64,000 bases of DNA from Bradyrhizobium oligotrophicum S58 (GTDB lineage Bacteria; Pseudomonadota; Alphaproteobacteria; Rhizobiales; Xanthobacteraceae): contig NC_020453.1 of NCBI RefSeq assembly GCF_000344805.1, positions 5,303,001 to 5,367,000 of the forward strand, written 5' to 3'. Position 1 is the stretch's first letter; each line of letters starts with the position of its first letter. The translations under genes were made by a program, and so were the position numbers. Shown here piece by piece: positions 2,661 to 57,758 of this stretch. The notes under the pieces were generated by a model. The model was given only the letters and a program-made list of their open reading frames with translations. It was not told the origin of the DNA and did no database searches.

Positions 2661-2700
2661 CGGAGCTGGTCCCAAAAATCTCGAGTGAAGATGGCGAAGT

Positions 2701-3879
2701 CTAGCCGCAGGGCGCGGCTGCGACCAGTTCGCCGCTGGCGATGGCCGCCTGCATCTGCCGCAGCCGGCGCCGCCTGCGGCGGTCGAGCCAGGCCTGCGTC
2801 GTGCGCTCGGTCATCGACTTGAGCGAGACGACGAAGCCGAACAGGGTCATCACCGCGCTGAACAGCCAGAGCGCGAGATTGAACGCGCCCGCGGTCAGGA
2901 GCAGCGCGCCACGGCCGAACAGCTTCAGGATCGCGCGTGTCTGGCCACCCTTGGCCTCGGCGAGCCGGGCGGCGCGGGCGATGTCCTTCGGCCCCTCGGC
3001 CAGCTTGAGCGAATCGAGCGCGCCGCGGGTTCCGACCTTCTCGGTGATGCGGCCGACATCCTTGGCGAGCCGCACCAGCGCGCCCGCCTTCTCTGCCCGA
3101 AAGGCAGCCCTGATCGCGGTCGCGGTCTCGCCCGGGCGCAACACCGAGCCGGTGGCGACCGCCTGCTGCAGCACGGGCGCATCCACCACCTCGCGTGCCG
3201 ACCGTCCCGCCCAGGCCGCGAGCCCTTCGCCGAGCCGGCCGACCTTCCGCGCATCCTTGACCAGGGTCAGCCCGGCCCGCACCGGCGCCGCGCCGCCAGC
3301 CGAGACGTAGGTCGCCGCGGTCACGGCAAGACCGGCGGTGGCGAGACCCAGCACCAGCCGGTCGGTTTCCTCGCCCATCACCAGGTGCTTGCCTTCGCGC
3401 ACCGCGTCGCGGATGTCGCCGAACACGAACAGATCGCCGGCCACGGTGCCCGAAAGGCTTGCGACGTCATCGGCCTGCCCGGTGACGAGGCCGGTCGCAA
3501 AGCGCCTGGCGACACTCGTCGGCGCCTGCTCCGCCGCGACGGCATCGCTCACCCGCCGGACCTGAGTTTCATCGAGCGCGACCCGATGCTCCCGCGCCAG
3601 TGCGACGAAGCTCTCGGCGAGATCGGGGTCGCTGGCGGCGAGCGCGTCGTCGATGCCGCGTGCAATGCGCGTCGGATCGGTCTGCAGGACGGACGTGGTC
3701 TGGAGCTCCGACAGCCGCGCCGGATCGTCCTGAGCCGCGATCACGGCTCCGGCACGATGCGCATGCGGCCACAACGCAACGCCGACCGCTGCAGTGAACG
3801 CGAGGCCTGCGAGGGCCAGATTGATTCGTCCCGGGATCACGCCGCCTTCACGTTTTCGCGTGGATGACACAACAGACAT
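2701..3879 (-). CDS. Membrane-anchored protein of unknown function
   Basis: A 392-residue protein I do not recognise. It has an N-terminal hydrophobic segment (residues about 20-40, LALAGLAFTAAVGVALW), a long Ala/Arg-rich region that is probably periplasmic with helical propensity, a weakly hydrophobic Gly/Ala stretch near the middle, and a strong C-terminal transmembrane segment (LLLTAGAFNLALWLFSAVMT) followed by a very basic cytoplasmic tail containing RRRRRRLRQ. The ATG at 3879 is preceded by GGAG at a good distance. The gene lies upstream of and in line with the alpha/beta hydrolase. Confidence 0.75.
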   Translation of the reverse strand: MSVVSSTRKREGGVIPGRINLALAGLAFTAAVGVALWPHAHRAGAVIAAQDDPARLSELQTTSVLQTDPTRIARGIDDALAASDPDLAESFVALAREHRVALDETQVRRVSDAVAAEQAPTSVARRFATGLVTGQADDVASLSGTVAGDLFVFGDIRDAVREGKHLVMGEETDRLVLGLATAGLAVTAATYVSAGGAAPVRAGLTLVKDARKVGRLGEGLAAWAGRSAREVVDAPVLQQAVATGSVLRPGETATAIRAAFRAEKAGALVRLAKDVGRITEKVGTRGALDSLKLAEGPKDIARAARLAEAKGGQTRAILKLFGRGALLLTAGAFNLALWLFSAVMTLFGFVVSLKSMTERTTQAWLDRRRRRRLRQMQAAIASGELVAAAPCG

Positions 3880-4131
3880 AGGATCTCCGGTGACGGACAC
3901 AACGGCCCCGACGAAAGAAGGGCTTCTCGGCGGCCCTGAGTTTGTGTCGAATCCACAGGCCAGAACATAACGGCGTGCGTCTCTCCCAAACCCGGGTTCC
4001 CAACACTAGGAATTGGCCTTAAGGCTCAGTATGGTCGCGCCGTTTTCGACTGGTGTGGCCATGCGACGAGTCCCGTCCTGCTCCGTCGTGCTGACCATAT
4101 ACGCTCCCGTTGCCACTCCAAGGTGATACCG

Positions 4132-4374
4132 ATGGCCGACAACATCGTCCCGCATTTCCACAACGATGCCGGCGTCCCCGTCATCGAGATCGGCTCGCAT
4201 GAGTTCATGTGCGTGGGCGCCAATCCGCCGTTCGATCATCCGCACGTGTTCCTCGATCTCGGCAACGACAACGAAATCATCTGCCCGTACTGCTCGACGC
4301 TGTACCGCTACGCGCCTGACCTCGCCGCGGGCGAGGCGCGGCCGCCGGAATGCGTGCTGAAGGACGTCGCCTGA
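4132..4374 (+). CDS. Small zinc-finger (CHCC-type) protein
   Basis: An 80-residue protein resembling the bacterial relatives of the mitochondrial complex I accessory subunit NDUFS6. Visible zinc-ligand candidates are the Cys of HEFMCVG, the His of DHPHVFLDLG, and the two cysteines of IICPYCSTLY, which fits the CHCC arrangement. The ATG at 4132 has AAGGTG just upstream; an in-frame GTG three codons earlier is less likely. In alphaproteobacteria such proteins are thought to take part in respiratory complex I biogenesis, but no nuo genes are nearby. The next gene begins 10 bases downstream, so the two are probably cotranscribed. Confidence 0.8.
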   Translation: MADNIVPHFHNDAGVPVIEIGSHEFMCVGANPPFDHPHVFLDLGNDNEIICPYCSTLYRYAPDLAAGEARPPECVLKDVA

Positions 4375-4384
4375 TCGGCGTGTC

Positions 4385-5584
4385 GTGGCATCTCGTACCG
4401 TCTTTGTCGCAGGGGCCGGGATCGGCGGCCTGACAGCCGCGCTGGCGCTCGCCACCAAGGGGTTCCGCGTCGTCGTGCTGGAAAAGGCCGAGCGGCTCGA
4501 GGAAGTCGGCGCCGGCCTGCAACTCTCGCCCAATGCCAGCCGCATCCTGATCGATCTCGGCCTGGGGCCGCGGCTGACCGCGCGCGCCGTGGTGCCGGAG
4601 GCCGTCAGCATCATGAGCGCACGGACCGGCGGCGAAATCGCCCGCCTGCCGCTCGGCGCCGCGGCGAGCGAGGCCGCGGGCGCGCCCTATTGGGTGATCC
4701 ACCGTGCCGACCTGCAGGCGGCGCTGGCGGCCGAGGCGATGGCGCATCCGGACATCGAGCTGCGGCTCGGCTGCCAATTCGAGGACGTCGCGGCCCACGC
4801 CAAGGGGCTGACGGTGGTGCATCGCCGCGGCAATGAGCGCCGCCAGGACGTGACGCTGGCGCTGATCGGCGCCGACGGGGTGTGGTCGGCGGTGCGGCAT
4901 CACCTGTTTCCGCAGGCGCGCGCCGAATTTTCCGGGCTGATCGCCTGGCGCGGCACGCTCGAGGCGCGGCAATTGCCCCGTGAATACACCAGCGCGCGGG
5001 TGCAGCTCTGGATGGGGCCGGACGCACATCTCGTCGCCTATCCGATTTCCGCCGGCCGTCAGGTCAACGTCGTCGCCGTGGTGCCCGGCACCTGGAACCG
5101 GCCCGGCTGGAGCACGGAAGGCGATCCGAACGAGCTGAAGGCTGTGTTCGGCCCGCCGCGCTGGCCGGCGGCGGCGCGCCTGCTGCTCAACGCGGTCGAT
5201 GGCTGGCGCAAATGGGCTCTGTTCGCGGTCCCCGAAGGCATCGAATGGACCGAAGGCAACGTCGCGCTGCTGGGCGACGCTGCGCACGCCATGCTGCCGT
5301 TTGCCGCGCAGGGCGCGGGCATGGCCATCGAGGATGCGGCGGTGCTGGCCAAGACCCTGAGCGAGGCCCGTTCCGACGGGCCGGCGGCGATCGAGGGCGC
5401 CCTGCAGCGCTATGCCGAGCTGCGGCGTCCCCGCGTCGGCCAGGTGCAGCGTACGGCACGCGATCAGGGCCGCGTCTACCACATGACCGGGCCGCTGGCG
5501 CTGGCGCGGGATCTCAGCATCAAGGCGCTGGGACCGCAGCGGCTATCGGCGCGGCAGAGCTGGATCTACGACTGGCGGCTATAG
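4385..5584 (+). CDS. FAD-dependent aromatic monooxygenase (salicylate hydroxylase-like)
   Basis: A 399-residue group A flavoprotein hydroxylase. The N-terminal dinucleotide-binding GAGIGGLTAALAL motif lies at residues 10-22, a second flavin/NADPH motif (ALIGADGVWSAVR) near 160, and the FAD-ribityl GDAAHAMLPFAAQGAGMAIED motif near 298. That set is typical of salicylate 1-monooxygenase and 6-hydroxynicotinate 3-monooxygenase relatives; the ring substrate is not readable. Translation starts at GTG 4385, close behind the zinc-finger gene. The C-terminus ends 12 bases before the stop of a convergent lipoprotein gene. Confidence 0.9.
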   Translation: MASRTVFVAGAGIGGLTAALALATKGFRVVVLEKAERLEEVGAGLQLSPNASRILIDLGLGPRLTARAVVPEAVSIMSARTGGEIARLPLGAAASEAAGAPYWVIHRADLQAALAAEAMAHPDIELRLGCQFEDVAAHAKGLTVVHRRGNERRQDVTLALIGADGVWSAVRHHLFPQARAEFSGLIAWRGTLEARQLPREYTSARVQLWMGPDAHLVAYPISAGRQVNVVAVVPGTWNRPGWSTEGDPNELKAVFGPPRWPAAARLLLNAVDGWRKWALFAVPEGIEWTEGNVALLGDAAHAMLPFAAQGAGMAIEDAAVLAKTLSEARSDGPAAIEGALQRYAELRRPRVGQVQRTARDQGRVYHMTGPLALARDLSIKALGPQRLSARQSWIYDWRL

Positions 5585-5595
5585 GCTGTGCTGGG

Positions 5596-6063
5596 TCAGT
5601 AGACCGAGCCGTCGCGCGGCAAGGTCGACGGTGTGCGAGGGCTCGTGGACGCCATCGGCCGCACGGTGCGCGCCGGCTTGACCGGCTTGCCGCCCTTTGC
5701 AGCCACGGGCGCCGGCGGCGTCTCGACACATTTGTTGCGACGCCAGGCCTCTTCGGCAAATTGCGACTGGCCGCGGACGGCGATGTAATCGTTGCGATAG
5801 GCGACCTCGGCGACAACAGCGCCGCCGGCCCCGGTCTCCGCCTTGGCCATCAATCCCTGCAGCTCGGCCGTGCGCCCGGCGAGCGCCTTGCGCTCGGCTT
5901 CGAGCTGCTTGCAGTCGTAGAGATCGTACTTGGCGGGATCGGCGAAGGCCGTCGACACGCTGTCGCTCATGCCCGCGCAGCCCGAGAGCAGCGTTCCGCA
6001 AGCGAACAGTCCCGCGGCGAGCGCGAGGCGCCAATGGATCGGGCGATGGCAGTCCGTCGTCAT
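5596..6063 (-). CDS. Small lipoprotein
   Basis: A 155-residue outer or inner membrane lipoprotein of unknown role. Residues 1-29 form a lipoprotein signal peptide with a hydrophobic core (LALAAGLFACGTLL) and lipobox LLSGC, so Cys29 would be lipidated. The mature part has a helical Lys/Glu/Ala segment (DCKQLEAERKALAGRTAEL) and a Pro/Lys-rich tail typical of an extended periplasmic linker. The longer frame open to 6288 is rejected because the signal peptide begins exactly at the ATG at 6061-6063. It converges on the monooxygenase. Confidence 0.8.
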   Translation of the reverse strand: MTTDCHRPIHWRLALAAGLFACGTLLSGCAGMSDSVSTAFADPAKYDLYDCKQLEAERKALAGRTAELQGLMAKAETGAGGAVVAEVAYRNDYIAVRGQSQFAEEAWRRNKCVETPPAPVAAKGGKPVKPARTVRPMASTSPRTPSTLPRDGSVY

Positions 6064-6464
6064 GCAGCCTCGATAATGCAGCCGGCTTAAAACATCGTCT
6101 CGATCGCGGGTACGCGCCAATCGGCCGCGCCCGGCGTTGCGGACGGCAGCAGCGCACGTCGCAGCGATCTTGTCCGCCCGATTCGTCACCCTCACCTCGT
6201 CCACTCGATGGCCCCGGATTCCCTCGGGATCATTTCCCGTGGTGCCTCCGTGCCTTATAACGGCCGCCTCGTCCATGTCATGCATCACGCCAGAACGGAC
6301 TTCGCGGATCGCTTCAGCTCGGAGGCAATCTCAAAGCAGCTGGTGACGGCGGGATTGAGGCTTTACCAAGGCGGCGGTGCTGGCTTAAGCAGAGGATGAG
6401 CTTCGGGGCCGCACGCAACCTCATTCCGTCTCGCCGGATGATGCGCTACGTCTCTGATCCCAAG

Positions 6465-6551
6465 GCGGACGTGGCGGAATAGGTAGACGCAAGGGACTTA
6501 AAATCCCTCGATGGCAACGTCGTGTGGGTTCGAGCCCCACCGTCCGCACCA
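6465..6551 (+). tRNA. tRNA-Leu (anticodon UAA)
   Basis: A seven-pair acceptor stem (GCGGACG with CGTCCGC), an anticodon arm AGGGA-CTTAAAA-TCCCT giving anticodon TAA, a long variable arm as expected for a class II tRNA, a T arm with GTTCGAGCC, discriminator A and an encoded CCA (6549-6551). Confidence 0.95.
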
Positions 6552-6699
6552 GGCTTTCACATTCATGCGAGCGACGACGAGTGTGGCTGAGCATCGCGGA
6601 AAAGAGCCGGTCCGCCCGCCATGACGACATCGCCTCGATCGCCGACCTTGCTGAGATCGGCACCATCTTCGACGCTGTCCGGCAGGCCGCCCTGCCCGC

Positions 6700-7425
6700 T
6701 CAGTTCAACGCCGCCAACCGCTCGAGGGCAGCGGGATCGGTCACCTGCAGAGTGCGGTCGGCAAGGGTCAGGATGTTGCGTTCGCGGAACAGCGCCAGCA
6801 CGCGGCTGACATGCACCGAGGTCAGGCCCACCGCATCGGCGATGTGCTGCTGCTTGAGCGGGAATGGATAGCGCTGGTCCGGGATTTCGCCGTGCGCGGC
6901 GATCCGCCGTATCAGGCTGAGCAGCAGATGCGCAATGCGCCGCTCCGCGGGGCGCTGGCCGAGCACGGTGATGAGTTCGTAGGAGGCGCGCCCGTTGTCG
7001 CCGAGCGAGCGAAACACCTCCATCATGACGAGCTCATCCGCGCGACATTGCGTGCGGACCTCCTCCCCGTCGAGCCGGCTGACCTCGACTTCGGTCAGCG
7101 CCTTGGCCGAGAAGCTCATGCCCTTGGAGAAGATCGCCGCCGGCGAGAAGATGTCGCCCGGCAGCAGGAAGCGTAGGATCTGCCGGCCGCCATCCGACAG
7201 CTGGATGTAGCGAAACGCCCAGCCGCTGCAGAGCACGAGCACATCGTCGCGTGCTTCGCTCTGGCATTTGATCTGGTGACCGGCCTTGACCGTCATGAAC
7301 TGCTGATTGAGCCGCGGCATCGCGGCCCGCTCCACGCAGGCATTGAACAGGGCCGCACAGAACCCGGAATTGCGGTGGACACAGCCAACGCAGCGAGGGG
7401 ACAGACCGCTTTCTGATCTCAGCAT
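6700..7425 (-). CDS. Crp/Fnr-family regulator with an N-terminal cysteine cluster
   Basis: A 241-residue transcription factor: an N-terminal Cys-rich segment, a cyclic-nucleotide-binding-like beta barrel (about residues 35-140), a dimer helix, and a C-terminal winged helix-turn-helix (about 165-235). Cysteines at 12, 15, 23 and 30 (CVGC, then FCAALFNAC) resemble the Fe-S cluster region of FNR, where three N-terminal cysteines and one central cysteine bind a 4Fe-4S cluster; further cysteines lie in the barrel (QIKCQ, LVLCSG, RTQCR). The recognition helix reads TSVHVSRVL: Ser and Arg of the FNR E-x-x-S-R pattern are kept but the Glu is not, so a target other than TTGAT-N4-ATCAA is likely. I chose ATG 7425 over an upstream start at 7461. 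Oxygen, redox or NO sensing is an inference. Confidence 0.85.
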   Translation of the reverse strand: MLRSESGLSPRCVGCVHRNSGFCAALFNACVERAAMPRLNQQFMTVKAGHQIKCQSEARDDVLVLCSGWAFRYIQLSDGGRQILRFLLPGDIFSPAAIFSKGMSFSAKALTEVEVSRLDGEEVRTQCRADELVMMEVFRSLGDNGRASYELITVLGQRPAERRIAHLLLSLIRRIAAHGEIPDQRYPFPLKQQHIADAVGLTSVHVSRVLALFRERNILTLADRTLQVTDPAALERLAALN

Positions 7426-7870
7426 CGAGAGCCGTGCTCGCCTTTCACGCATCCGGCGCAATCACGCGTGCACCGGCTGCTCTGAGGCGTACAGCACTAC
7501 GGCTTGTCACGACCGCCGAAGCCCAGTGTGACGTGCGGCTCTCGCCTCCTCGCTCACTACTGATCTACGGGAGAAACCGGCGCTGAAGATATAACCTATA
7601 TTAATTAGCCGCATGCGCCATCATCGCGCAGCCGGGCCGGAGGGGGACGACAAAATCAGAGCACCGGATCCGGGCTGTCGAACAGCAAAGCATCTCGAGA
7701 GATGAGAGGACGCGACCATGCTTCCGGCATGCGACCTCGATGAGACCGGCAACCCGCGGCACCGCCACCGCCCCAGATGGGCCGGAGACTTCGCCTCTCC
7801 CGGCGCCAGCGCTGCAAGACGATATGGCGCCCCTCGGACATCACGCTCTCCCACCCCGATGTTGAACTGC
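7426..7870. other. Intergenic, no gene seen
   Basis: About 445 bases with no convincing CDS. It includes an AT-rich patch near 7588-7612 (AGATATAACCTATATTAATT) that could hold the promoter of the Crp/Fnr gene. A 72-codon minus frame (7656-7874) overlaps the stop of the SRPBCC gene but looks like noise. Confidence 0.5.
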
Positions 7871-8356
7871 TCACGACGATGATGAGGGGCGTTCCGCCTC
7901 TGCCACGAAGCGCTGCAGCAGGCCGGGCCAGCCGCCGTCGACATCCCTGCGCATCGATGCGCCGGCCTCGCTGCCCATCGTTTCAAACTTGTGATGCAGC
8001 AGCTCGACGCGCGTCTTCTCCGCTTCCTCCGCAAAGAACCGCACGTCGACCTCCGAACGCATCGCTGCATCCGGCTTCCACTGCGCATTGATCTGCCACA
8101 CCATGACGAAGCGATGCGGCGGCTCCCACAGCGCGATGGTTGCGACCGGCGTCTGACTGCCATCCTCGGCAATCTCGAGCCAGCGCCCGCCGAGCTTGGG
8201 CTCCAGCAGCACCTTTGCGATCGGCTTGCCGCCGACCCCATGCGTATGCGGCCACCAGCGGGTCAGGCCGCTGGTGAACACGGCGAAGGCATGGTCGATC
8301 GGCGCCTGGACATGGACCTGCTTCCGAACCGGCGCAATCACGACGGGCTCACTCAT
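7871..8356 (-). CDS. SRPBCC / AHSA1-like protein
   Basis: A 161-residue protein of the START-like SRPBCC superfamily (activator-of-Hsp90-ATPase-1-like group). Family hallmarks visible are VQAPIDHAFAVFTSGLTRWW near the N-terminus, LEPKLGGRWLEIAEDGS, the central WEPPHRFVMVWQI strand, and the C-terminal long helix region GWPGLLQRFVAEAE. These proteins form a hydrophobic cavity for a ligand that is usually unknown. The start codon overlaps the end of the upstream ArsR gene by eight bases, showing translational coupling. ArsR plus SRPBCC is a recurrent bacterial gene pair. Confidence 0.88.
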   Translation of the reverse strand: MSEPVVIAPVRKQVHVQAPIDHAFAVFTSGLTRWWPHTHGVGGKPIAKVLLEPKLGGRWLEIAEDGSQTPVATIALWEPPHRFVMVWQINAQWKPDAAMRSEVDVRFFAEEAEKTRVELLHHKFETMGSEAGASMRRDVDGGWPGLLQRFVAEAERPSSSS

Positions 8357-8678
8357 TCCTCGTCCCTTTCGTCTGTCGATGCCTGCGCTCGGCCTCGATC
8401 TTGAAGGCGAGCAGCGCGTCGTCCCAGAAGCTGTCGAGCCAGTCGCGCAGCTCGGCCAATCCCTCGCGGCGCAACGAGTAGATGCGCCGTACACCTTCGC
8501 TCCGCTCCTCGACCAGCCCGGCGTCCTTCAGCAGCTTCAGATGCTGCGATACCGCAGGACGCGACACAGGCAGTCCGGCCGCAATCGCATGGACCGGGCG
8601 CGGCCCGTCCCGCAGGCGCTCGAACACCTGCCGCCGCGTCGGGTCCGCAAGCACCGCCAATGCCGTTTCGTAAGCCAT
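8349..8678 (-). CDS. ArsR-family winged-helix repressor
   Basis: A 109-residue DNA-binding protein. [15 protein letters not shown] near residue 11 and the helix-turn-helix [19 protein letters not shown] at about 38-56 are characteristic, followed by the wing ([13 protein letters not shown]). No metal-binding ELCVCDL-type motif is present, so it belongs to the non-metal ArsR branch that commonly regulates SRPBCC genes. It overlaps the SRPBCC gene and lies nine bases from a perfect palindrome (8687-8702), which points to autoregulation. Confidence 0.9.
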
Positions 8679-8686
8679 GTCTTACC

Positions 8687-8702
8687 GTAAGCTTGAGCTT
8701 AC
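8687..8702. promoter_or_regulatory. Palindromic operator ahead of the ArsR gene
   Basis: GTAAGCT-TG-AGCTTAC, a perfect 7-bp inverted repeat with a 2-bp spacer, begins nine bases before the arsR-like start codon. Position and symmetry fit an ArsR-dimer operator. Binding is inferred. Confidence 0.65.
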
Positions 8703-8893
8703 CAAGAGGTCAAGAGAAACGTACGATTGGTACCCGGCAGTCCGGATCACCCCGGTCTTCGCCACCGGCGGTTGCAGCGGGAAACCTTTTGGTAACCAAA
8801 CCCCGAGCAGGTTGGAACCGAAGGCTGCCGCCTGACGAATCGGCGAGACACAGCGGCATCGCGCGCGCCGCCGCGATCGCATCGAGAGGAAAA

Positions 8894-10297
8894 ATGCTGG
8901 GATTCCGCAGCCGCAAAACCAACGAACCGCAGCCCTCTTCCGCGTTCGACACTGCTGCCTCCGACGCATTTCAGGAGGCCCTGGCGCAGTGCCTTGGCGA
9001 CTGGGCCGAGGGCAAGCTCAACCGCGAGATCGCCAGCCTCGACGCCGCGGCACTGCGCGCCCGGCTCAGGCCTGATCTGATCGAGGCCATCCATCGGCTC
9101 GGCACGGCGCTCACCGCACGGGCGTCTCAGGATCTCGATTCCATCGTCGATCTCTGCATCAACAGCAACGAGGCCTCGATCAGCGCGGCCCGCCTGATCG
9201 GCGCCTCCAACAATCAGTCCGAGCGCTGCCAGAGCCTCGCTTCGGCGTCGGTCGAGATGCAGGCCTCGGTGCACACCATCAGATCGACATCGACCGAAGC
9301 CGCCGCCGAGGCGGCCGCGACCCGCCAGGCCGTCGACAACAGCGTGACCGCCGTGCGCCGGACGCTGCAGACCATGAACGGCATCGCCAGCTCGGTGCGC
9401 GACACCTCGGCCAAGATCGCCGATCTCAGCGCGGCCTCCGCGGAGATCGGCTCGATCGTCGGTACCATCGATGCGATCGCCAACCAGACCAACCTGCTGG
9501 CGCTGAACGCCACCATCGAGGCCGCCCGCGCCGGCGAGTTCGGCCGGGGCTTTGCCGTCGTCGCGGCCGAGGTGAAAAACCTGTCGCAGCAGACCACCAA
9601 GGCGACCGAGGACATCAAGGGCCGCATCGAACGGCTGCAGGCCGAGATGGGCGGCATCGTCGAGGCCATGGCCGGCGGCGCCAAGGCGGTCGAGATCGGC
9701 ATGACCGAGATGAACGATCTGGCGCAGACGATCGATCAGGCCGGCTCGCGGACCGCGGTGGTCAGCTCCAAGATGGACGAGATCTCCGGCATCCTCGCCG
9801 AGCAGAGCGCGGCGACCGACGAGGTGGCGCAGGGCATCACCATCATCGCCGATCTCGCGACCGCCAACGCGAACGAGGTGATGTCGCTCGCCGATACGAT
9901 GAGCAGGACCGATTCGAAGGTCGGCAAGATGCTGGGCGACATCGCCAGGCTCTCGCTCGACAATCAGGTCGTCCGGCTTGCCAAGGCCGACCACGTGATC
10001 TGGAAGAAGCGGCTCGTCGACATGTCCGTCGGGCGGCTGCAGCTCAAGGCGGATGAGCTCACCGACCATCACAATTGCCGGCTCGGCAAATGGTATTATG
10101 GCGAAGGTGGCCAGCGCTTCGCCGGCAACGCGGCGTTCCGCGCCCTCGAACGGCCGCACGAGGCCGTGCATCGCCACGGCAAGGAAGCCGCCCGTCTGTT
10201 CAGCTCAGGACGCATCGAGGAAGCGCTCAGCGAAATCGGCAAGGTCGAGGTCGCCTCGACCGACGTCCTGGCTTCTCTCGACCAGATCAAGGAGTGA
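8894..10297 (+). CDS. Soluble chemoreceptor with C-terminal CZB zinc-binding domain
   Basis: A 467-residue methyl-accepting chemotaxis protein without any transmembrane segment, so it is cytoplasmic. The signalling hairpin tip ([22 protein letters not shown]) lies near residues 197-218, flanked by Ala/Ser/Thr-rich coiled coil. The last 110 residues are a chemoreceptor zinc-binding (CZB) domain: His in DHVIWKKRL near 366, Cys in NCRLGKWYY near 395, and the two histidines of PHEAVH near 421-424. In characterised CZB receptors these three His and one Cys bind zinc and sense zinc or hypochlorite. The N-terminal 130 residues carry no named sensor domain that I recognise. The ATG at 8894 has GAGAGGA upstream. 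No che genes are adjacent. Confidence 0.9.
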
Positions 10298-10488
10298 TCG
10301 CACGACGATGCCCGGACCGTTTCCAGCGCGATGGGTGTTGCAGCCAGGATGTGTCCGACATGCGATCGGGAAAAACGCGCCATCTGGTCCATGCGCCCCG
10401 CTGATGGCACGCGACCCGGAAACGATTCGATCCACTCAAGCGCCAACTATAAGTTACAACTTTAGCGGTTCGGAACCCGGAGCAGGAC

Positions 10489-24711: not shown

Positions 24712-24809
24712 CGTCACTCCGGGGCGTGCGAAGCACGAGCCCGGAGTCCATACTCACGATCGTGGTTATGGATTCCGGGCTCACGCCTGCGGGCGTGCCC
24801 CGGAATGAC
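24712..24809. repeat. Palindromic repeat, family C
   Basis: CGTCACTCCGGGGCGTGC on the left and CCCCGGAATGAC on the right, with AGCCCGGAGTCCAT and ATGGATTCCGGGCT inside. One mismatch (CACTCC for CATTCC) in the left arm. It lies just upstream of the enoyl-CoA hydratase gene. Confidence 0.88.
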
Positions 24810-24862
24810 AGCGGAGTTTGTGGCACGCACAACCAACAACAACGACCGCATCAGGAAACCCC

Positions 24863-40233: not shown

Positions 40234-40338
40234 TGTCATTCCGGGGCGGCGCGAAGCGACGAGCCCGGAATCCATTTCTCTACGCGTTCTGTCGCCCGAT
40301 GGAATCCGGGCTCGCGCTTACGCGCGCCCCGGAATGAC
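40234..40338. repeat. Palindromic repeat, family C, in the third Anbu-operon gap
   Basis: GTCATTCCGGGGCG on the left and CGCCCCGGAATGAC on the right; GAGCCCGGAATCCAT and ATGGAATCCGGGCTC inside. It separates the transglutaminase and Anbu genes. Confidence 0.9.
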
Positions 40339-40433
40339 ACCGATGGTGGAGCTCCGGGCGCGCGCTTCACTGCGGGGGTTGGACGGACCGCCGATTTTCG
40401 CTAGTAATTCGCGTAACTGCTCGGGGGACGACG

Positions 40434-42031: not shown

Positions 42032-42180
42032 CGTCATTCCGGGGCGCGCGGAGCGCGAGCCCGGAATCCATACCCACAGGATCGACTGTGAGGCACGCGC
42101 GGAGTGAGCATCTCTCGTCGCCATGACCGCTCGTGGTTATGGATTCCGGGCTCATCGCTCCGCGATGCCCCGGAATGACG
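42032..42180. repeat. Palindromic repeat, family C (long centre)
   Basis: CGTCATTCCGGGGCGCGCG on the left and GCCCCGGAATGACG on the right; AGCCCGGAATCCAT and ATGGATTCCGGGCT inside, with an about 70-base centre. Confidence 0.88.
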
Positions 42181-47654: not shown

Positions 47655-47756
47655 CGTCATTCCGGGGCGTGCGAAGCACGAGCCCGGAATCCATTGCTCC
47701 GCACGTTCTGCCGCCCGATGGATTCCGGGCTCGCGCTTCGCGCGCCCCGGAATGAC
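47655..47756. repeat. Palindromic repeat, family C
   Basis: CGTCATTCCGGGGCGTGCG on the left and CGCGCCCCGGAATGAC on the right; GAGCCCGGAATCCAT and ATGGATTCCGGGCTC inside. Confidence 0.9.
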
Positions 47757-47788
47757 AGCGTTGGTAGAGCGACCAACGCGCCGTCAAC

Positions 47789-52263: not shown

Positions 52264-53604
52264 TCAATCCTTGAACGGATCGAACTCGCCGTCGCCGGCC
52301 ATCACCACGGCGAACGGCCGCAGCGTATGCACCACCTTCACCGAGCCGGCGTGCTCGGCGAGCACCTCGGGCAGACGGCGATAGGCCATCGGGCTCTCGT
52401 CGAGATCGGCCCCGATCAGGGTGACGCCGCGGCCCTGCAGCCATTCGTCCATCTCGGCGCGCGTGAAACGCCGCTTGGCCTCCTTGCGGCCGAACAAGCG
52501 GCCGGCACCGTGCACCGTCGAGTACAGCGAGGCCTTGGCCTCCTCCGACTCGACGCCCTCGATGATGACGGCGTCGTCGCCCATCGAGCCGCCGACAAAG
52601 CCGCGCTGGCCGGGAAAGGCCGGCGTCGCGCCCTTGCGCACCACCCACAGATCACGCCCGCCATGGGTCTCACGCCAGGCATAGTTGTGGTGGTTGTGCA
52701 CGCTGTCGGTGACCACGCCGCCGATGATCTGGCGCACGCGCTCGGTCACCCACTCGCGTCCCGCATAGGCGTAGCGCCCGGCGAGCTGCATCGCGGCGAC
52801 GTAGCGCTGCCCGACCTCCGAGTCCTCGTCGACCACGGCGGGCGGCACGTTCATGCCGTCCTTGCCGCCGGCGGCCTTGAGGTAGCGCGTGGCCGAGGTG
52901 TGGCCGAGACCACGGCTGCCGAAATGCACGCCGATCCAGACGAAGCCGTCTCCGTCGCGCATCAGATCGACATAGTGGTTGCCCGATCCGACCGTGCCGA
53001 GCTGTCCGACCGCTTTCTGCCGGTACTCGCCCATATCCGACTCGCGCCAGGCATCGGCATCGTCGAACAGCTCGTGATCGACCCGCTCGGCGTTCTTGCG
53101 TCCGATGCCGAACGAGATCACCTTGGCGACATCCTTGATGATCGCGCCGACGTCGGACTCGATCGCGCTGAACTGCGTGTCGAGCCGCACCGCCATGTTG
53201 CCGCAACCGATGTCGAAGCCGACACCGGAGATGCTGATCTGCTTCTCATAGGCGATCACGCCGCCGACCGGCTGCGCATAGCCGAGATGACCGTCGGCGC
53301 AGATCACCCCGGCCACGGCGTTGCCGACCGCCATGCAGTTCTTCATCTGCGCGATGGTTGCGTCCTCATGGCGACCAAACACCTTCAGCGGGCTGTTCTG
53401 GTACTGCGCCGCCTGCGGCCTGCCCGCGACCGTCTCAGCCAGCGCCCCGGCCTCGCGCGCCAGCTGCTCCTTGCGCGCGGCATCGCGGAACGTGCACCAC
53501 AGCGGCATCGAGCGCTGCCCGGGCCGCTCGACCCGTGCATCCGGATCGAGGCCGGCTTCGACCGCCAGCTGTCGGGCGCGCTCCTGGTAGGGATCGGCTC
53601 GCAT
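52264..53604 (-). CDS. rtcB: RNA-splicing ligase RtcB
   Basis: A 446-residue GTP- and Mn-dependent RNA ligase that joins 2',3'-cyclic phosphate (or 3'-phosphate) ends to 5'-OH ends, as formed when ribonucleases cut tRNA. Active-site elements are all present: ICADGHLGYAQPVGGV near residue 101, VGFDIGCGNMAVR (metal Cys) near 128, GSGNHYVD and GVHFGSRGLGH (metal His) near 206-233, SVHNHHNYA near 307, and the guanylylated His365 in TVHGAGR. AGAGAGGAG precedes the start codon. It is on the same strand as, and downstream of, slipin, tRNA-like elements and an HNH nuclease. No rtcA, rtcR or archease gene is in the window. Confidence 0.95.
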   Translation of the reverse strand: MRADPYQERARQLAVEAGLDPDARVERPGQRSMPLWCTFRDAARKEQLAREAGALAETVAGRPQAAQYQNSPLKVFGRHEDATIAQMKNCMAVGNAVAGVICADGHLGYAQPVGGVIAYEKQISISGVGFDIGCGNMAVRLDTQFSAIESDVGAIIKDVAKVISFGIGRKNAERVDHELFDDADAWRESDMGEYRQKAVGQLGTVGSGNHYVDLMRDGDGFVWIGVHFGSRGLGHTSATRYLKAAGGKDGMNVPPAVVDEDSEVGQRYVAAMQLAGRYAYAGREWVTERVRQIIGGVVTDSVHNHHNYAWRETHGGRDLWVVRKGATPAFPGQRGFVGGSMGDDAVIIEGVESEEAKASLYSTVHGAGRLFGRKEAKRRFTRAEMDEWLQGRGVTLIGADLDESPMAYRRLPEVLAEHAGSVKVVHTLRPFAVVMAGDGEFDPFKD

Positions 53605-54065
53605 TTGATGCTCCTCTCTTGCTCATGCACCACACGACCGCGCCAATGCGCCGCCATGATCGGAGTCACCCGGCCTGAGGCCCGGCGACCATTTGTGCAG
53701 AGAGATGACTTTGAGGATGCAGTCCCGGTAAGGGAGGTCGTCCGGCGGATCGTCTCTCTGGCCTCGAAGGCAGAGGGACGGCCCGCTGCCTCAACTATGC
53801 GTCTGGTCGAATGCTGTGTAGCAGCGCGGTGCTTGCGGAGACGGCCGGCACGCGCACGAGCCAATCACGGCGGCCGCAATGCGGCAGCGCGATGGCCTCG
53901 ATCAGGCGTGATATCGAATTCGGCATGGATCTCTCGCTGGCGGATATCCGCACAATACGTTGGCGCGTGCTCTTACAGCAAATTCGAAATTTGTAAAGTC
54001 GACGATCGAAATCGCGATCGCTTCTTCGCGATGTGCCGTGGACCGAGCACATCATGGCCGATCGT
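53605..54065. other. Leader region of rtcB, no gene seen
   Basis: About 460 bases between rtcB and the repeat bordering the GIY-YIG gene. There is a dyad near 53971-53997 (CTTACAGCAAATT / AAATTTGTAAAG) in an AT-rich patch. A weak sigma-54-like string (TGGCGGC-N4-TGGCG on the minus strand, about 45-65 bases before the start) is too poor to call. Confidence 0.4.
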
Positions 54066-54184
54066 GGCTATGGATTCCGGGCTCATCCGCTACGCGGCTG
54101 CCCCGGAATGACGCGTGGAGAGAGCCAGTACACTCTCCACGCGTCATTCCGGGGCGCCCGAAGGGCGAGCCCGGAATCCATACT
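54066..54184. repeat. Family C palindromes flanking the GIY-YIG gene (3-prime side)
   Basis: TGGATTCCGGGCTCATCCGC...GCCCCGGAATGACGCGTGGAG, then CTCCACGCGTCATTCCGGGGC...GAGCCCGGAATCCATACTCA. The unit is an inverted pair with almost the same sequence as the copy at 54507-54625 on the other side of the gene. Confidence 0.92.
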
Positions 54185-54209
54185 CATTATAGAAGTTTGA
54201 GGCAGGCCT

Positions 54210-54497
54210 TCAGCCGCAGATGCCTAGGTACAGATCATCCCAATTCGGGTTCTGCTCCTCGATCAGCCTGATCTTCCAGCCGCGCCGCCACTTCTTCAGC
54301 TCCTTCTCGCGGGAGATGGCGGCGATGGCGTCGTCGTAGATCTCGAACCAGACGAGCTTGCCGATGTCATAGCGCGAGGTGAAGCTTGGTACAGACTTCG
54401 TCCTATGCTCGTACACGCGACGCACGAGATCGTTCGTCACGCCCAGATAGAGAGTGCCGTGCTTCTTGCTCGCAAGCAGATAGACGTAATGCGCCAT
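54210..54497 (-). CDS. Small GIY-YIG nuclease
   Basis: A 95-residue stand-alone GIY-YIG domain, the length of the UvrC-N/YhbQ-like family. The fold motifs read HYVYLLAS (residues 3-10) and TLYLGVTNDLVRRVYEHR (15-32); the conserved Tyr17, Gly19, Arg27 and His31 are in place, and the catalytic Glu candidate is in SREKELKKW (62-70), with Asn in QNPNW near 83-85. The ATG at 54495-54497 is the family start; the open frame upstream is only repeat sequence. The gene sits exactly between two nearly identical inverted pairs of family C palindrome. Its placement between slipin and rtcB may be an insertion rather than a functional link. Role unknown. Confidence 0.9.
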   Translation of the reverse strand: MAHYVYLLASKKHGTLYLGVTNDLVRRVYEHRTKSVPSFTSRYDIGKLVWFEIYDDAIAAISREKELKKWRRGWKIRLIEEQNPNWDDLYLGICG

Positions 54498-54506
54498 CGG
54501 ACAGTC

Positions 54507-54625
54507 GTGGTTATGGATTCCGGGCTCATCCGCTGCGCGGCTGCCCCGGAATGACGCGTGGAGAAAGCCAGTAAACTCTCCAGGCGTCATTCCGGGGCGC
54601 ACGAAAGCGCGAGCCCGGAATCCAT
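54507..54625. repeat. Family C palindromes flanking the GIY-YIG gene (5-prime side)
   Basis: The same inverted pair in the same order and orientation as 54066-54184: TGGATTCCGGGCTCATCCGC...GCCCCGGAATGACGCGTGGAG, then CTCCAGGCGTCATTCCGGGGC...GAGCCCGGAATCCATACTCA. It ends ten bases before the GIY-YIG start codon on the other side. Confidence 0.92.
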
Positions 54626-54735
54626 ACTCACCAAACTCAGTTGGTATTTCAACTCTCTCCCACACACCCTTAGACGGTCGAAAGGCCGCCCGTGGGCGGC
54701 CTTTCCTATCAACGATGCAGTCTGGCACTCAGCCA

Positions 54736-55887
54736 TCACGCCGCATCCGGCGCCTTCAGCCGCACCAGCTGCGTCAGCAGCGCGTCGAGGCCTGCACCCT
54801 CACCGGCATGCAGGTCGATGCGGCCGACCTTCTCGACGAGGCGCTCCAGCGACTCCAGCTCCTTGAGCCGCAGCAGCAGCGGGTTCTCCTCCATCAGCTT
54901 GGCGGTGTTCAGGAGCGAGCGCGTCGCCGCGGTCTCCTCCTGGCGGCGGATCAGGTTGGCCTTCGCCGTCCGCTCCGCCTCCACCACCTTGTTGACGAGC
55001 TCGCGGATCTCGCCGGGCAGGATCACGTCCTTCACGCCGAGCTCCGTCACCTCGACGCCCGAGCCGTCGAGCCGCGCACGCACGTAGTCGCGCAGCTCGG
55101 CATCGAGCGAGGCCTTGGCCGCCAGCACCTCGTCGAGCGTGCGTGACGCCACTGCCTCGCGGATCGCGAACTGCACCAAACGATACAGCCACGCATCCAC
55201 GTCCGGCGTGGTCGCCACCGCCGCCTCCGCATCGACGATCCGCCGGAACGCCGTCAGGGTCACCCGCAGTGCGATGCGATCCTTGGTCAGCATCTCCTGC
55301 GCGGTGATCTCGAGCGCGGTGGGCCGCAGATCGAGGCGCTTGACCTCGATCTTGCGGCCGACGGCCCAGAAGGCGTGCCGGCCCGGCGCCAGCCGATCGG
55401 CCAGCTTGCCGTCGACATGAAGCAGACCGGCCTCGTGGTTCTCGACCACCGCCTCGGTCACGATGCCAGGCCGGTTGCGCTCGATCATCGCCAGATGCCG
55501 CGCGCTGACGCGTACGTCATCGGTGATGTCGATCCGCTCGACATCGATCCTCGTCGCCACCTTCCAGTAGACGCGGCTCTGCCAGGGCGTGAGCAGATGC
55601 GCCGGCCGGCCATCGAGGCTGACGATCGCGATCTCGTTCGCACCGGTCTCCACCGCCTCGAACAGCTCGGCGGCGAGATCGGGCCGTGCGGCCTTCAGCA
55701 CCGCGTAGCGATCAGCCGGGTACTCGGCCTTGACCACGTCGAACAGCTGGACCGTCAGCCGGTGCAGCGGATCGAGCAGCGCATGACGGCCGGTGCCGAG
55801 CACGCGCACGAGCTGGCCGTCACGCCAGACCAGCGCCCGCTCCCCATCCGCCACCGTCACTGACTTCGTCATCACATGCCAGCTCAT
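54736..55887 (-). CDS. Slipin / SPFH (band-7) domain protein
   Basis: A 383-residue SPFH-domain protein. It opens KSVTVADGERALVWRDGQLVRVLGTGRHALLDP and has a second such segment (ENHEAGLLHVDGKLADRLAPGRHAFWAVGRKIEVKRLDLRP), then the SPFH core TKDRIALRVTLTAFRRIVDAEAA and LDEVLAAKASLDAELRDYVRARLDGSGVEVTELGVKDVILP. The C-terminus is a coiled coil (VVEAERTAKANLIRRQEETAATRSLLNTAKLM). There is no N-terminal transmembrane segment, unlike typical stomatins, so membrane attachment is uncertain. AGGAG lies six bases before the ATG. I recall slipin/band-7 genes as neighbours of rtcB in other bacteria; here only the GIY-YIG unit lies between them. Confidence 0.9.
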   Translation of the reverse strand: MSWHVMTKSVTVADGERALVWRDGQLVRVLGTGRHALLDPLHRLTVQLFDVVKAEYPADRYAVLKAARPDLAAELFEAVETGANEIAIVSLDGRPAHLLTPWQSRVYWKVATRIDVERIDITDDVRVSARHLAMIERNRPGIVTEAVVENHEAGLLHVDGKLADRLAPGRHAFWAVGRKIEVKRLDLRPTALEITAQEMLTKDRIALRVTLTAFRRIVDAEAAVATTPDVDAWLYRLVQFAIREAVASRTLDEVLAAKASLDAELRDYVRARLDGSGVEVTELGVKDVILPGEIRELVNKVVEAERTAKANLIRRQEETAATRSLLNTAKLMEENPLLLRLKELESLERLVEKVGRIDLHAGEGAGLDALLTQLVRLKAPDAA

Positions 55888-55983
55888 GGCACTCTCCTGT
55901 CACGCAAGGTCCGGCGTCGTGCCGGGCCGTGCTCTGTTGGCTGTCCCTCCATCGGCGACAGCAGTTTCAAACTCAAAGGACGT

Positions 55984-56221
55984 GAGGACCGGACGGCGCT
56001 TCCTGCGCGAACCGAGCGGACCGCGGCTTGAGCGTCGGATGATGCCCGGCGCACGCGTGCGGTCGCGCGAGCCGCAGCCCGCGTGTCCATACGCAGCATT
56101 CCCGACAACACGCGACGCGGTATCCACCGCGGCACAGAGCCGGCTCTGCAGTGTCTTGATCTGGTCGATGAGCCTTGCGGCAAAACGGCCGGACCGCGAC
56201 TGAAGCGCGCGTCCGGTCCTC
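55984..56221 (-). repeat. Long inverted repeat in the slipin leader
   Basis: GAGGACCGGACGGCGCTTC (55984-56002) and GAAGCGCGCGTCCGGTCCTC (56202-56221) are reverse complements except for one bulged base, about 200 bases apart. Inside each arm is also a related direct block, GGACCGCGGCTTGAGCG near 56019 and GGACCGCGACTGAAGCG near 56191. It lies between the tRNA-like elements and slipin and would form a large stem in an RNA that spans it. Confidence 0.65.
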
Positions 56222-56256
56222 GTCAGAGGCGCCTAGCTTTTACGCTATTCCGGAGC

Positions 56257-56329
56257 GCTTGGAGCGGGAGTCGAACCCGCGACCCGATGATTCCTGGTCA
56301 TCTGCTCTAACCAACTGAGCTATCCTTTG
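56257..56329 (-). ncRNA. tRNA-like element 2 (broken acceptor stem)
   Basis: On the minus strand: D arm GCTC-AGTTGGTTA-GAGC, anticodon-like arm GATGA-CCAGGAA-TCATC, variable GGGTC and T arm GCGGG-TTCGACT-CCCGC are all intact. The acceptor stem has only three pairs next to the T stem (GGA/TCC); the outer four do not pair and there is no CCA. The loop base before the would-be anticodon (AGG) is C, not the invariant U. A real charged tRNA is therefore unlikely; it is either a decayed tRNA or a tRNA-shaped RNA. Confidence 0.75.
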
Positions 56330-56331
56330 TT

Positions 56332-56394
56332 CGCCGATCGGATTCGAACCGATGCCCTCGGGCTCACACCCGATGCTCACCATGAGCTTCGACG
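56332..56394 (-). ncRNA. tRNA-like element 1 (miniature, GTG loop)
   Basis: On the minus strand: a five-pair acceptor-like stem CGTCG/CGGCG, D arm GCTC-ATGGT-GAGC with a five-base loop, anticodon-like arm TCGGG-TGTGAG-CCCGA with a six-base loop containing GTG, and a perfect T arm ATCGG-TTCGAAT-CCGAT. Total about 63 bases. The loops are shorter than any normal tRNA and no CCA is present. It ends two bases before element 2, so the two may form one tandem RNA. Confidence 0.65.
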
Positions 56395-56587
56395 CGCATC
56401 TTCTCTTCAGCGGAATACGCCACCGGAGACCGGCGCGCACCAGTCGGGATCTCAGCGAGCCCGAACCCATGGCCAAAGCGAAGGACGGTGCAAATAGAAC
56501 AACTATTACGTCAACGCAAGTGTTAGTTTGTCGTTTCGTCAGATATTGCAGATCAGTTGATCATGATGATCGCAACTACATCCTCAT

Positions 56588-56734
56588 CGTCATTCCGGGG
56601 CGCGCGCAGCGCGAGCCCGTAATCCATGACCACGAGCGGGAGTTGGTCGAAGACAAGCGCCACTCGCATCGCGCGCCACATCAACAGATGTGGCTATGGA
56701 TTCCGGGCTCGCGCTACGCGCGCCCCGGAATGAC
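56588..56734. repeat. Palindromic repeat, family C
   Basis: CGTCATTCCGGGGCGCGCG on the left and CGCGCCCCGGAATGAC on the right; GAGCCCGTAATCCATG and TATGGATTCCGGGCTC inside, with a longer centre. It is preceded by an unusually AT-rich stretch at about 56490-56585. Confidence 0.87.
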
Positions 56735-56756
56735 GATCAATCGATACAGCACCTTT

Positions 56757-56868
56757 GTAGCCCGGATGAGCGAAGCGACATTCGGGTTCACACGCGCCGC
56801 TCATGAGAACCCGGATGTCGCCCACGCCGCCGCCCCAGTGGGCGGCGACGTGAGCTCATCCGGGCTAC
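56757..56868. repeat. Palindromic repeat, family A
   Basis: GTAGCCCGGATGAG on the left and CTCATCCGGGCTAC on the right, with a CCGCCGCCCCAGTGGGCGGCG insert in the right half. It abuts the end of the HNH gene. Confidence 0.88.
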
Positions 56869-56878
56869 ACGACCGTCT

Positions 56879-57415
56879 TCACCGCTCCAGCTCCGCGTCC
56901 CAATACAGATAGTCCTGCCACGTCTCGTGCAGGAATCGCGGCGGGAACAGGCGTTGCGCGGCCATCAGCTCGTGCCGCGTCGGCTCGAAAGGCGGCCGCC
57001 GCGGCTTGAGGTAGCGCCGGTCCTTGCGCGCATTGCACGGACTGCACGCCGCGACGATGTTCGTCCACGACGTCTCGCCGCCGTCCGCCCGCGGCACCAC
57101 GTGATCGAACGTCAGCTCTCCGTGGAGATGACGGCCGCCGCAGTACTGACACGTGAAGCGATCGCGCAGGAAGACGTTGAAGCGCGTGAACGGCACCCGC
57201 ATCGCCGGCCTGACGTAGTCGCGCAGCGCGATCACCGACGGCAGCCGCATCGTCACGCTCGGGCTGCGAACGACGCGATCGTACTCCGCAACGACGACGT
57301 GCGATCCGCTGACCACGGCCCTGATCGCATCCTCCCAGCCGAACACCGACAGCGGAAAGTAGCTCAGCGGCTGGAAATCGGCGTTGAGAACGAGCGCCGG
57401 GTTCGTTGCTGACAT
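56879..57415 (-). CDS. HNH endonuclease
   Basis: A 178-residue protein of a widespread chromosomal HNH family. The N-terminal half begins ALVLNADFQPLSYFPLSVFGWEDAIRAVVSG and SPSVTMRLPSVIALRDYV. The HNH motif spans about residues 87-135: FLRDRFTCQYCGG (zinc Cys pair), ELTFDHVVPRADGGETSWTNIVAACSPCN (catalytic His, Asn, and second Cys pair) and ARKDRR. It probably cuts DNA, but the target is unknown. GGAGG lies about eight bases before the start codon. A tRNA-like element ends 39 bases upstream on the same strand. Confidence 0.9.
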   Translation of the reverse strand: MSATNPALVLNADFQPLSYFPLSVFGWEDAIRAVVSGSHVVVAEYDRVVRSPSVTMRLPSVIALRDYVRPAMRVPFTRFNVFLRDRFTCQYCGGRHLHGELTFDHVVPRADGGETSWTNIVAACSPCNARKDRRYLKPRRPPFEPTRHELMAAQRLFPPRFLHETWQDYLYWDAELER

Positions 57416-57454
57416 CGTCGACCTCCTCTCTTCGTTTGATCCGCCCGGTCGTGT

Positions 57455-57529
57455 TGGCGCCCATGACGGGAATCGAACCCGCCTTTCCGGATCGACAGTC
57501 CGGTCCCTTCGCCAGATGGGGACATGGGC
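57455..57529 (-). tRNA. tRNA-like element 3 (anticodon GUC, Asp-type) with encoded CCA
   Basis: On the minus strand: a perfect seven-pair acceptor GCCCATG/CATGGGC, U8, a D arm with only three pairs (CCC/GGG) and a ten-base loop, anticodon arm CCGGA-CTGTCGA-TCCGG giving GTC, a four-base variable loop AAAG, T arm GCGGG-TTCGATT-CCCGT, discriminator G and CCA. Asp tRNAs have G as discriminator, so it could be charged with Asp, but the acceptor is unlike a normal alphaproteobacterial tRNA-Asp (GGAGCGG type). It may be an extra, specialised tRNA or a tRNA mimic; it precedes the HNH gene. Confidence 0.75.
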
Positions 57530-57569
57530 AGTTGGACGCGCCCGGCCTGCCCGGGCATGTCATCGTTGA

Positions 57570-57758
57570 TCAGTCTAACGCAGCCGGAGCGTGCTCCGGC
57601 CGAACGCCATTGATGTAGTCGAGATAGATCTGGCGAGCGCGTGCCTCAGTGACGCCGCGGCAAGCCATGACGATGCGCACGAACGCAAGCGCCACCGGCG
57701 AGCACAGTGCTCGCGCATGGTCGGATGTCTCGGAGTCCGGGATCGTCATGCGGGTCAT
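57570..57758 (-). CDS. Small protein upstream of tRNA-like element 3
   Basis: A 62-residue protein that I do not recognise. Residues 20-35 (SPVALAFVRIVMACRG) are moderately hydrophobic, followed by VTEARARQIYLDYINGV. The minus-strand start has GGAGG six bases upstream of the ATG at 57758, a strong ribosome-binding site. It ends 40 bases before tRNA-like element 3 and is in line with it and with the HNH gene, so one transcript could carry all three. Confidence 0.55.
   Translation of the reverse strand: MTRMTIPDSETSDHARALCSPVALAFVRIVMACRGVTEARARQIYLDYINGVRPEHAPAALD

Follow-up and report, generated by a model that had tools for sequence, protein, structure and literature searches.

A conserved RNA with two tandem tRNA mimics accompanies a slipin gene, and often RtcB, in Bradyrhizobium oligotrophicum S58 and other bacteria

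The window analysed here is a stretch of 64,000 nucleotides (nt) from the genome of Bradyrhizobium oligotrophicum S58, in which the minus strand of one locus carries, in order of transcription, an open reading frame (ORF) of 62 amino acids (aa), tRNA-like element 3, an HNH endonuclease gene, tRNA-like elements 1 and 2, a gene for a slipin (an SPFH/Band-7 protein), a GIY-YIG ORF and the gene for an RtcB-family RNA ligase (Table 1). From sequence comparison, elements 1 and 2 appear to be the middle of one conserved structured RNA of about 500-600 nt. This RNA and the slipin are an almost invariant pair, of which RtcB is often, but not invariably, a partner, and a role of the locus in the response to tRNA damage is likely. 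An earlier sequence-only reading had proposed a candidate RNA damage and repair locus with three tRNA-like elements; the idea is right in outline, and a joint part in responding to RNA damage is well supported, but the grouping of the three elements does not hold, and the size and make-up of the RNA had been understated.

We compared 96 slipin loci, 16 from 150 Hyphomicrobiales genomes and 80 named loci that were the best 80 of 575. They do not represent as many independent species, as L040 and L114 are one contig, further overlaps are possible and metagenome-assembled genomes (MAGs) are included. By their record labels the loci belong mostly to Alpha- and Gammaproteobacteria, the outliers being two MAGs or bins of Betaproteobacteria and two entries labelled Verrucomicrobia (a contig) and Bryobacterales. 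We ran a covariance model (R1), covering elements 1 and 2, on 91 of the 96 loci, 42 of which had served to build it, and a model of the 5' domain and element 1 (R2) on the 150 Hyphomicrobiales genomes, which were counted as slipin-positive at a match of 237 bits or more.

The RNA consists, from its 5' end, of a two-hairpin domain, two tandem cloverleaves (elements 1 and 2), a hairpin resembling an anticodon arm in most relatives, and a 3' domain. Among 17 Bradyrhizobium-like sequences, conservation sets in about 100 nt ahead of element 1 and fades out 60-100 nt short of the slipin gene. RNAalifold recovered both cloverleaves unaided from 43 sequences, and in the structure of elements 1 and 2, both partners had changed in 30 of 41 pairs, with a covariation of 0.524 against at most 0.113 when the partners were slid. 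The full-length RNA, in 24 alphaproteobacterial sequences, had such changes in 72 of 111 pairs and a covariation of 0.409 against at most 0.096, for a structure taken from the same alignment on which it was scored and therefore biased in its favour. Elements 1 and 2, previously seen as separate, are thus parts of one larger conserved RNA with covariation in all of its domains. The helices of the 5' and 3' domains are not tRNA-like. At gathering scores, tRNA was the only family that Rfam returned, both for this part of the window and across the 23 loci scanned, and neither GOLLD, ROOL nor any other non-tRNA family matched at these scores in the window or the 23 loci. In the window, the R1 match at 56250-56399 spans both elements with 118.1 bits. 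The hairpin that follows element 2, with at least 4 base pairs (bp) and a 7-nt loop YUNNNAM, was found in 51 of 71 loci, against at most 3 in shuffled sequences and 0 of 89 control windows.

The two cloverleaves are abnormal as tRNAs. As aligned, the acceptor stem is 5 bp long in the window copy of element 1 and 3 bp in that of element 2; the anticodon arm of element 1 ends in a 6-nt loop, and element 2 has a C at position 33. Neither element combines the 7-bp acceptor stem and the 7-nt loop with U33 of a decoding tRNA. In element 1, parsed in 71 loci, the loop of the anticodon arm measures 4 nt in 23, 5 in 6, 6 in 18, 7 in 19 (at least 9 of these being poor parses) and more in 5. In element 2, the anticodon loop is 7 nt long at 60 of 70 loci. 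Among 20 Bradyrhizobium loci it occurs in 14 different sequences, flanked in all 20 by stem strands that read GATGA or GGTGA and, opposite, TCATC; a second count, whose search pattern fixed some stem letters, covered 17 of 21 Bradyrhizobium loci and gave 12 different loops, with ten triplets among fifteen 7-nt loops. With a 7-nt loop often missing from element 1, and with an element 2 loop that is hypervariable inside a single genus, decoding by either is unlikely. We accordingly consider it very improbable that elements 1 and 2 are processed to decoding tRNAs, a view to which the cloverleaf folds, the CCA that follows element 1 in some relatives and the prevailing 7-nt loop of element 2 would lend themselves, and against which stand the 4-nt loops of element 1, the variation of the element 2 triplet among close relatives and the short acceptor stem of element 2.

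The pairing with slipin is nearly complete. R1 matched upstream of the slipin gene and on its strand in 90 of the 91 loci, including 48 of the 49 outside the model-building set, and the sole miss (L041) is cut near a contig end; no match up to an E-value of 1 was found in 13 paralogous SPFH loci. Scores reached at least 80 bits in 73 of the 90 matches and lay at 41-74 bits in the other 17, no better than for a single tRNA, suggesting that the mimic may be single at some loci. Ahead of slipin and on its strand, two T-loop motifs spaced by 60-125 nt occur in 75 of 91 loci with at least 720 nt upstream, one of the 75 (L143) having ordinary tRNA genes instead, and 15 further loci have at least one such motif. 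With L143 set aside, the T-loops of these pairs lie 282-715 nt before slipin, and a Burkholderia record has two T-loops at the equivalent position. Nine R2 matches above 85 bits were identified in the 150 Hyphomicrobiales genomes, eight of them at slipin genes; the ninth (G008:C230:5653-5807, L201) is at the end of a contig whose examined stretch has no slipin, and the slipin of G008 is found near the start of another contig. In 9 of the 17 slipin-positive genomes no match of this strength was present at the slipin gene, indicating that R2 misses diverged copies. The conserved neighbourhood in related genomes that the sequence-only reading had named as its check is borne out by the slipin-RNA linkage, and elements 1 and 2 are not confined to this genome.

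A constant arrangement of this kind is also what would be seen if the RNA were a cis-acting leader of the slipin mRNA, with tRNA enzymes such as RNase P or an anticodon nuclease reading or cutting its mimics and slipin expression being set in this way on tRNA damage. We regard this explanation as unlikely, but as a serious contender. The RNA is always on the slipin strand, its T-loops lie at the distances given above, and no terminator-like site was found in window 55880-57500; the size of the RNA and the number of its conserved domains, however, go beyond those of usual leaders, and trans-acting RNAs also adjoin the genes of their protein partners.

RtcB is more loosely attached. It was over the cut-off in 27 of the 150 Hyphomicrobiales genomes, and specifically in 10 of the 17 with slipin and 17 of the 133 without (Fisher p 6e-5, odds ratio 9.7, kinship uncorrected). 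RtcB lies within 30 of 95 slipin loci and, among 86 loci with at least 1300 nt downstream, is on the same strand and within 2.4 kb of the slipin start (slipin itself being about 1.1 kb) in 24. Bradyrhizobium has RtcB in 6 of 20 slipin loci, upstream in five of them, and within the stretches examined none was seen in the 16 order-sample loci apart from the genome studied here. Since the linkage in Bradyrhizobium is loose and 7 of the 17 slipin-positive genomes, some of them drafts, yielded no RtcB, one operon is not the rule. The proposed linkage of slipin, rtcB and the tRNA-like elements stands for slipin and the RNA, and for RtcB as enrichment and partial same-strand linkage.

We additionally identified the regulator gene rtcR beside the module. 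The order is rtcR, tRNA-like pair, slipin, RtcB and nucleotidyltransferase in the Burkholderia record and rtcR, slipin and nucleotidyltransferase in Citrobacter. Both of these, and one E. coli record, have a sigma-54-like site upstream of slipin, as does no other of 92 loci. In L264 (3396-5320), slipin is followed by a nucleotidyltransferase gene, in a segment that matches 1624 of 5426 complete E. coli genomes. These neighbours bear on a further explanation, which we hold to be quite unlikely, that slipin and the RNA serve some other stress function and that RtcB and the tRNA-array remnant described below are co-inherited neighbours in an accessory island. The slipin-positive genomes in which RtcB was not found would agree with it, as would the next ORF being on the opposite strand in 17 of 30 chosen loci without downstream RtcB (by simple ORF picking); it is opposed by the enrichment and same-strand linkage of RtcB, by rtcR adjoining the module in Citrobacter and Burkholderia, and by the regulon reported in the accessible part of a study of Anabaena (PMC10272220).

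Element 3 has a different history. Judged from its sequence, it would qualify as a decoding tRNA, with a full cloverleaf, a 7-nt loop and CCA. The description of three abnormal tRNA shapes therefore suits elements 1 and 2 and fails for element 3, a nearly normal tRNA-Asp(GTC) with CCA (ARAGORN defaults), which is closely similar to copies in the tRNA arrays of L224 and L227. Related HNH proteins occur in 58 of 60 Bradyrhizobium genomes, the present one included, and a close ortholog (76-83%) in 7 of the 59 others sampled; all seven orthologs lie among 8-25 tRNA genes with a homolog of the 62-aa ORF at the edge (L224-L230, L253-L259). No tRNA was found within about 1.5 kb of the other HNH type in 22 loci. 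The site studied here has the array-type HNH gene and the edge ORF, with a single tRNA in place of a cluster. Element 3, the HNH gene and the 62-aa ORF are thus the remnant of a tRNA array, and do not form one set with elements 1 and 2. Neither slipin nor RtcB was seen in the seven arrays (9-20 kb each), indicating that arrays do not generally adjoin slipin. Further tRNA genes are absent from 83 of 95 slipin loci, and four have at least three (32, 5, 3 and 3), three of these four with an HNH gene; in L157 (labelled Verrucomicrobia), the stretch 2416-10400 holds, one after another, 32 further tRNA genes, HNH, the RNA, slipin and RtcB. The genuine array remnant next to elements 1 and 2 would suit a view of these, too, as decaying tRNA genes from an array. 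We give this hardly any credence, as it is contradicted by the strong covariation, unless the alignment misleads, and by conservation in 90 of 91 loci.

We see an even chance that the locus serves as an accessory module against tRNA damage, in which the RNA and the SPFH protein form a trans-acting ribonucleoprotein that imitates tRNA. The RNA would work in trans with an SPFH ring serving as scaffold, and the particle would present itself as tRNA to tRNA-binding enzymes. Element 2, with its fast-changing anticodon loop, may bait or sense nucleases that cleave anticodon loops, and element 1, with its closed-off anticodon arm, may be a stable anchor. RtcB would reseal cleaved tRNA, and perhaps the bait too, and tRNA arrays, where present, would resupply tRNA. 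This reading is based on the near-invariant pairing and orientation of RNA and slipin, on covariation in all RNA domains, on the eight of nine strong R2 matches at slipin genes, on the 4-nt loops of element 1 together with a variable element 2 loop between constant stems, and on the frequency of the anticodon-arm motif over shuffled sequences. It draws further on the linkage and co-occurrence of RtcB, on rtcR beside the module and the sigma-54-like site (Citrobacter and Burkholderia, the site also in E. coli), and on the Anabaena regulon, which in the accessible part of its description joins a tRNA array, HNH, rtcB and slipin.

Several observations weigh against such a module. The always-cis arrangement of RNA and slipin also fits a leader, the fast change of the element 2 loop could equally mean relaxed constraint, and some slipin loci may carry one tRNA mimic only. 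In the window copy of the RNA itself, the acceptor stems are weak and the third hairpin has a loop of 6 nt. RtcB is missing from the finds in seven slipin-positive genomes, and the enterobacterial RNA is at most much reduced, R2 giving a 10.7-bit T-arm-like hit in Citrobacter and none in E. coli. In Pseudomonas aeruginosa an SPFH gene sits in the rtc locus and, in the accessible part of the report, its deletion had no effect on pyocyanin, swimming or biofilm, for a protein that may belong to another subfamily (PMC13086221). The role of the RNA may be that of decoy, sensor, scaffold or leader.

A bolder form of the tRNA-damage module strikes us as speculative and rather doubtful: a widespread bacterial ribonucleoprotein in which a tRNA-mimicking RNA of about 500-600 nt is combined with SPFH protein in a ring or a small vault-like cage, the hypervariable loop being in an arms race with tRNA-cleaving nucleases and the RNA a sacrificial bait or sensor that RtcB resets. 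As to the vault particle proper, which consists of major vault protein and vault RNA, a profile search of solved structures with the slipin returned no vault protein; the N-terminal part of the slipin alone gave weak matches to single SPFH-type beta modules.

Table 1. Features of the locus (window positions)
Feature	Position	Strand	Evidence
RtcB-family RNA ligase, 446 aa	52264..53604	-	PF01139, 224.6 bits; aligns to solved RtcB 1uc2
GIY-YIG ORF, between slipin and rtcB	54210..54728	-	PF01541, 51.9 bits; domain at residues 80-152
SPFH/Band-7 (slipin) protein, 383 aa	54736..55887	-	PF01145, 104.9 bits
3' domain of the RNA, with long closing helix	55984..56221	-	Alignment helices 13-22; own fold
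Hairpin after element 2	56234..56247	-	Window copy of 4 bp with 6-nt loop
tRNA-like element 2, anticodon loop CCAGGAA	56256..56329	-	Rfam tRNA, 46.8 bits at 56325-56261; covariation
tRNA-like element 1	56330..56398	-	Rfam tRNA, 32.0 bits at 56394-56332
5' domain of the RNA, two hairpins around conserved CYGGYGCG...CGTRTNCCG	56405..56478	-	Alignment helices 1-3; R2 match at contig 5359326-5359475
HNH endonuclease	56879..57415	-	PF01844; ortholog of the HNH gene within Bradyrhizobium tRNA arrays
Element 3, tRNA-Asp(GTC) with encoded CCA	57455..57529	-	ARAGORN default; Rfam 52.7 bits at 57529-57458
62-aa ORF	57570..57758	-	No family found; homolog at the tRNA-array edge in 7 of 7 arrays

Profile, Rfam and ARAGORN matches located the genes and the tRNA-shaped elements on the minus strand where the sequence-only reading had put them. 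RtcB, which starts 1131 nt past the slipin ORF, retains the strings DIGCG, GNH, HFGSRGLGH and HGAGR, which we take to be active-site motifs. A second RtcB-family gene lies in the same genome at about 1249346-1250356, in a 382-aa open frame with about 30% identity to the first. The AlphaFold2 model of the slipin (predicted local distance difference test score 82.5) has extra N-terminal beta modules, and no clear transmembrane segment was identified in the protein, whose highest 19-residue hydropathy mean is 0.96. RtcA and RtcR have no match anywhere in the genome, as had been supposed; the supposed absence of Ro applies to the locus and not to the genome, where TROVE (Ro) matches were found only at 4833731-4834471, away from the locus.

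The GIY-YIG ORF, whose presence varies among the loci of relatives, is probably not part of the slipin/RNA system. It adjoins palindromic repeats, one of which overlaps its first part. Palindromic repeat pairs with CGTCATTCCGGGGC gave 14 motif hits in the window versus 0.09 expected, at 54100-54155, 54543-54598, 56588-56735, 24712-24810, 40234-40339, 42032-42180 and 47655-47757, and copies flank the GIY-YIG domain on both sides.

Although many bacteria have RtcB, little is known of its natural substrates and partners. The RNA described here, very unusual in composition with its two tRNA mimics and, in most cases, an anticodon-arm mimic standing by itself, is linked with an SPFH protein and often with RtcB, and offers a definite RNA-protein pair to purify. 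The laboratory Bradyrhizobium strain ORS 285 also carries the locus, with a slipin of 95% identity. As the related slipin-nucleotidyltransferase segment is present in so many E. coli genomes, with the RNA at most much reduced, laboratory work on the protein side is within reach.

Among known systems, the closest is reportedly that of Burroughs and Aravind in 2016 (Nucleic Acids Res., gkw722), who are said to have placed a tRNA-like RNA beside SPFH/Band-7 genes in RNA repair systems. The SPFH gene, the adjacent tRNA-like RNA and the nearby RNA ligase of such RtcB modules are all present here; the tandem cloverleaves, the 5' and 3' domains, the anticodon-arm mimic and the hypervariable loop were found in the present work. 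In the open-access literature searched, no paper was found that joins RtcB together with a slipin or Band-7 protein, or an SPFH protein by itself, with tRNA-like RNA.

In Anabaena PCC 7120, according to the accessible part of one study, deletion of the repressor TrcR raised rtcB 77-fold, the HNH gene all8564 17-fold and the slipin gene alr0740 42-fold, and a 26-gene tRNA operon, induced by antibiotics against translation, is under TrcR too (PMC10272220); part of another describes the HNH gene, rtcB, alr0739 and alr0740 as changing together, perhaps via erythromycin (PMC9938897). The likeness, at the level of genes, lies in tRNA array, HNH, rtcB and slipin coming together, whereas the Anabaena loci are scattered under one repressor. 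The rsr-yrlBA-rtcBA operon of Salmonella with its Y RNA similarly combines, in the section available, RtcB with a scaffold-type protein and an adjacent noncoding RNA that has a tRNA-like domain, but the scaffold there is Ro/TROVE instead of SPFH, and RtcR and RtcA are absent from the present genome (PMC7790460). No Ro/TROVE gene lies in the locus studied here. The tRNA array units with HNH, as described in the accessible parts of two reports, share an HNH gene by accessory tRNA, of which one is left here (PMC5966550, PMC12803027). Finally, the ornate RNAs GOLLD and ROOL are, in the part of the source available, likewise large and structured and can occur near tRNA islands; in contrast, the RNA described here contains tRNA mimics and is paired with an SPFH gene (PMC12286853).

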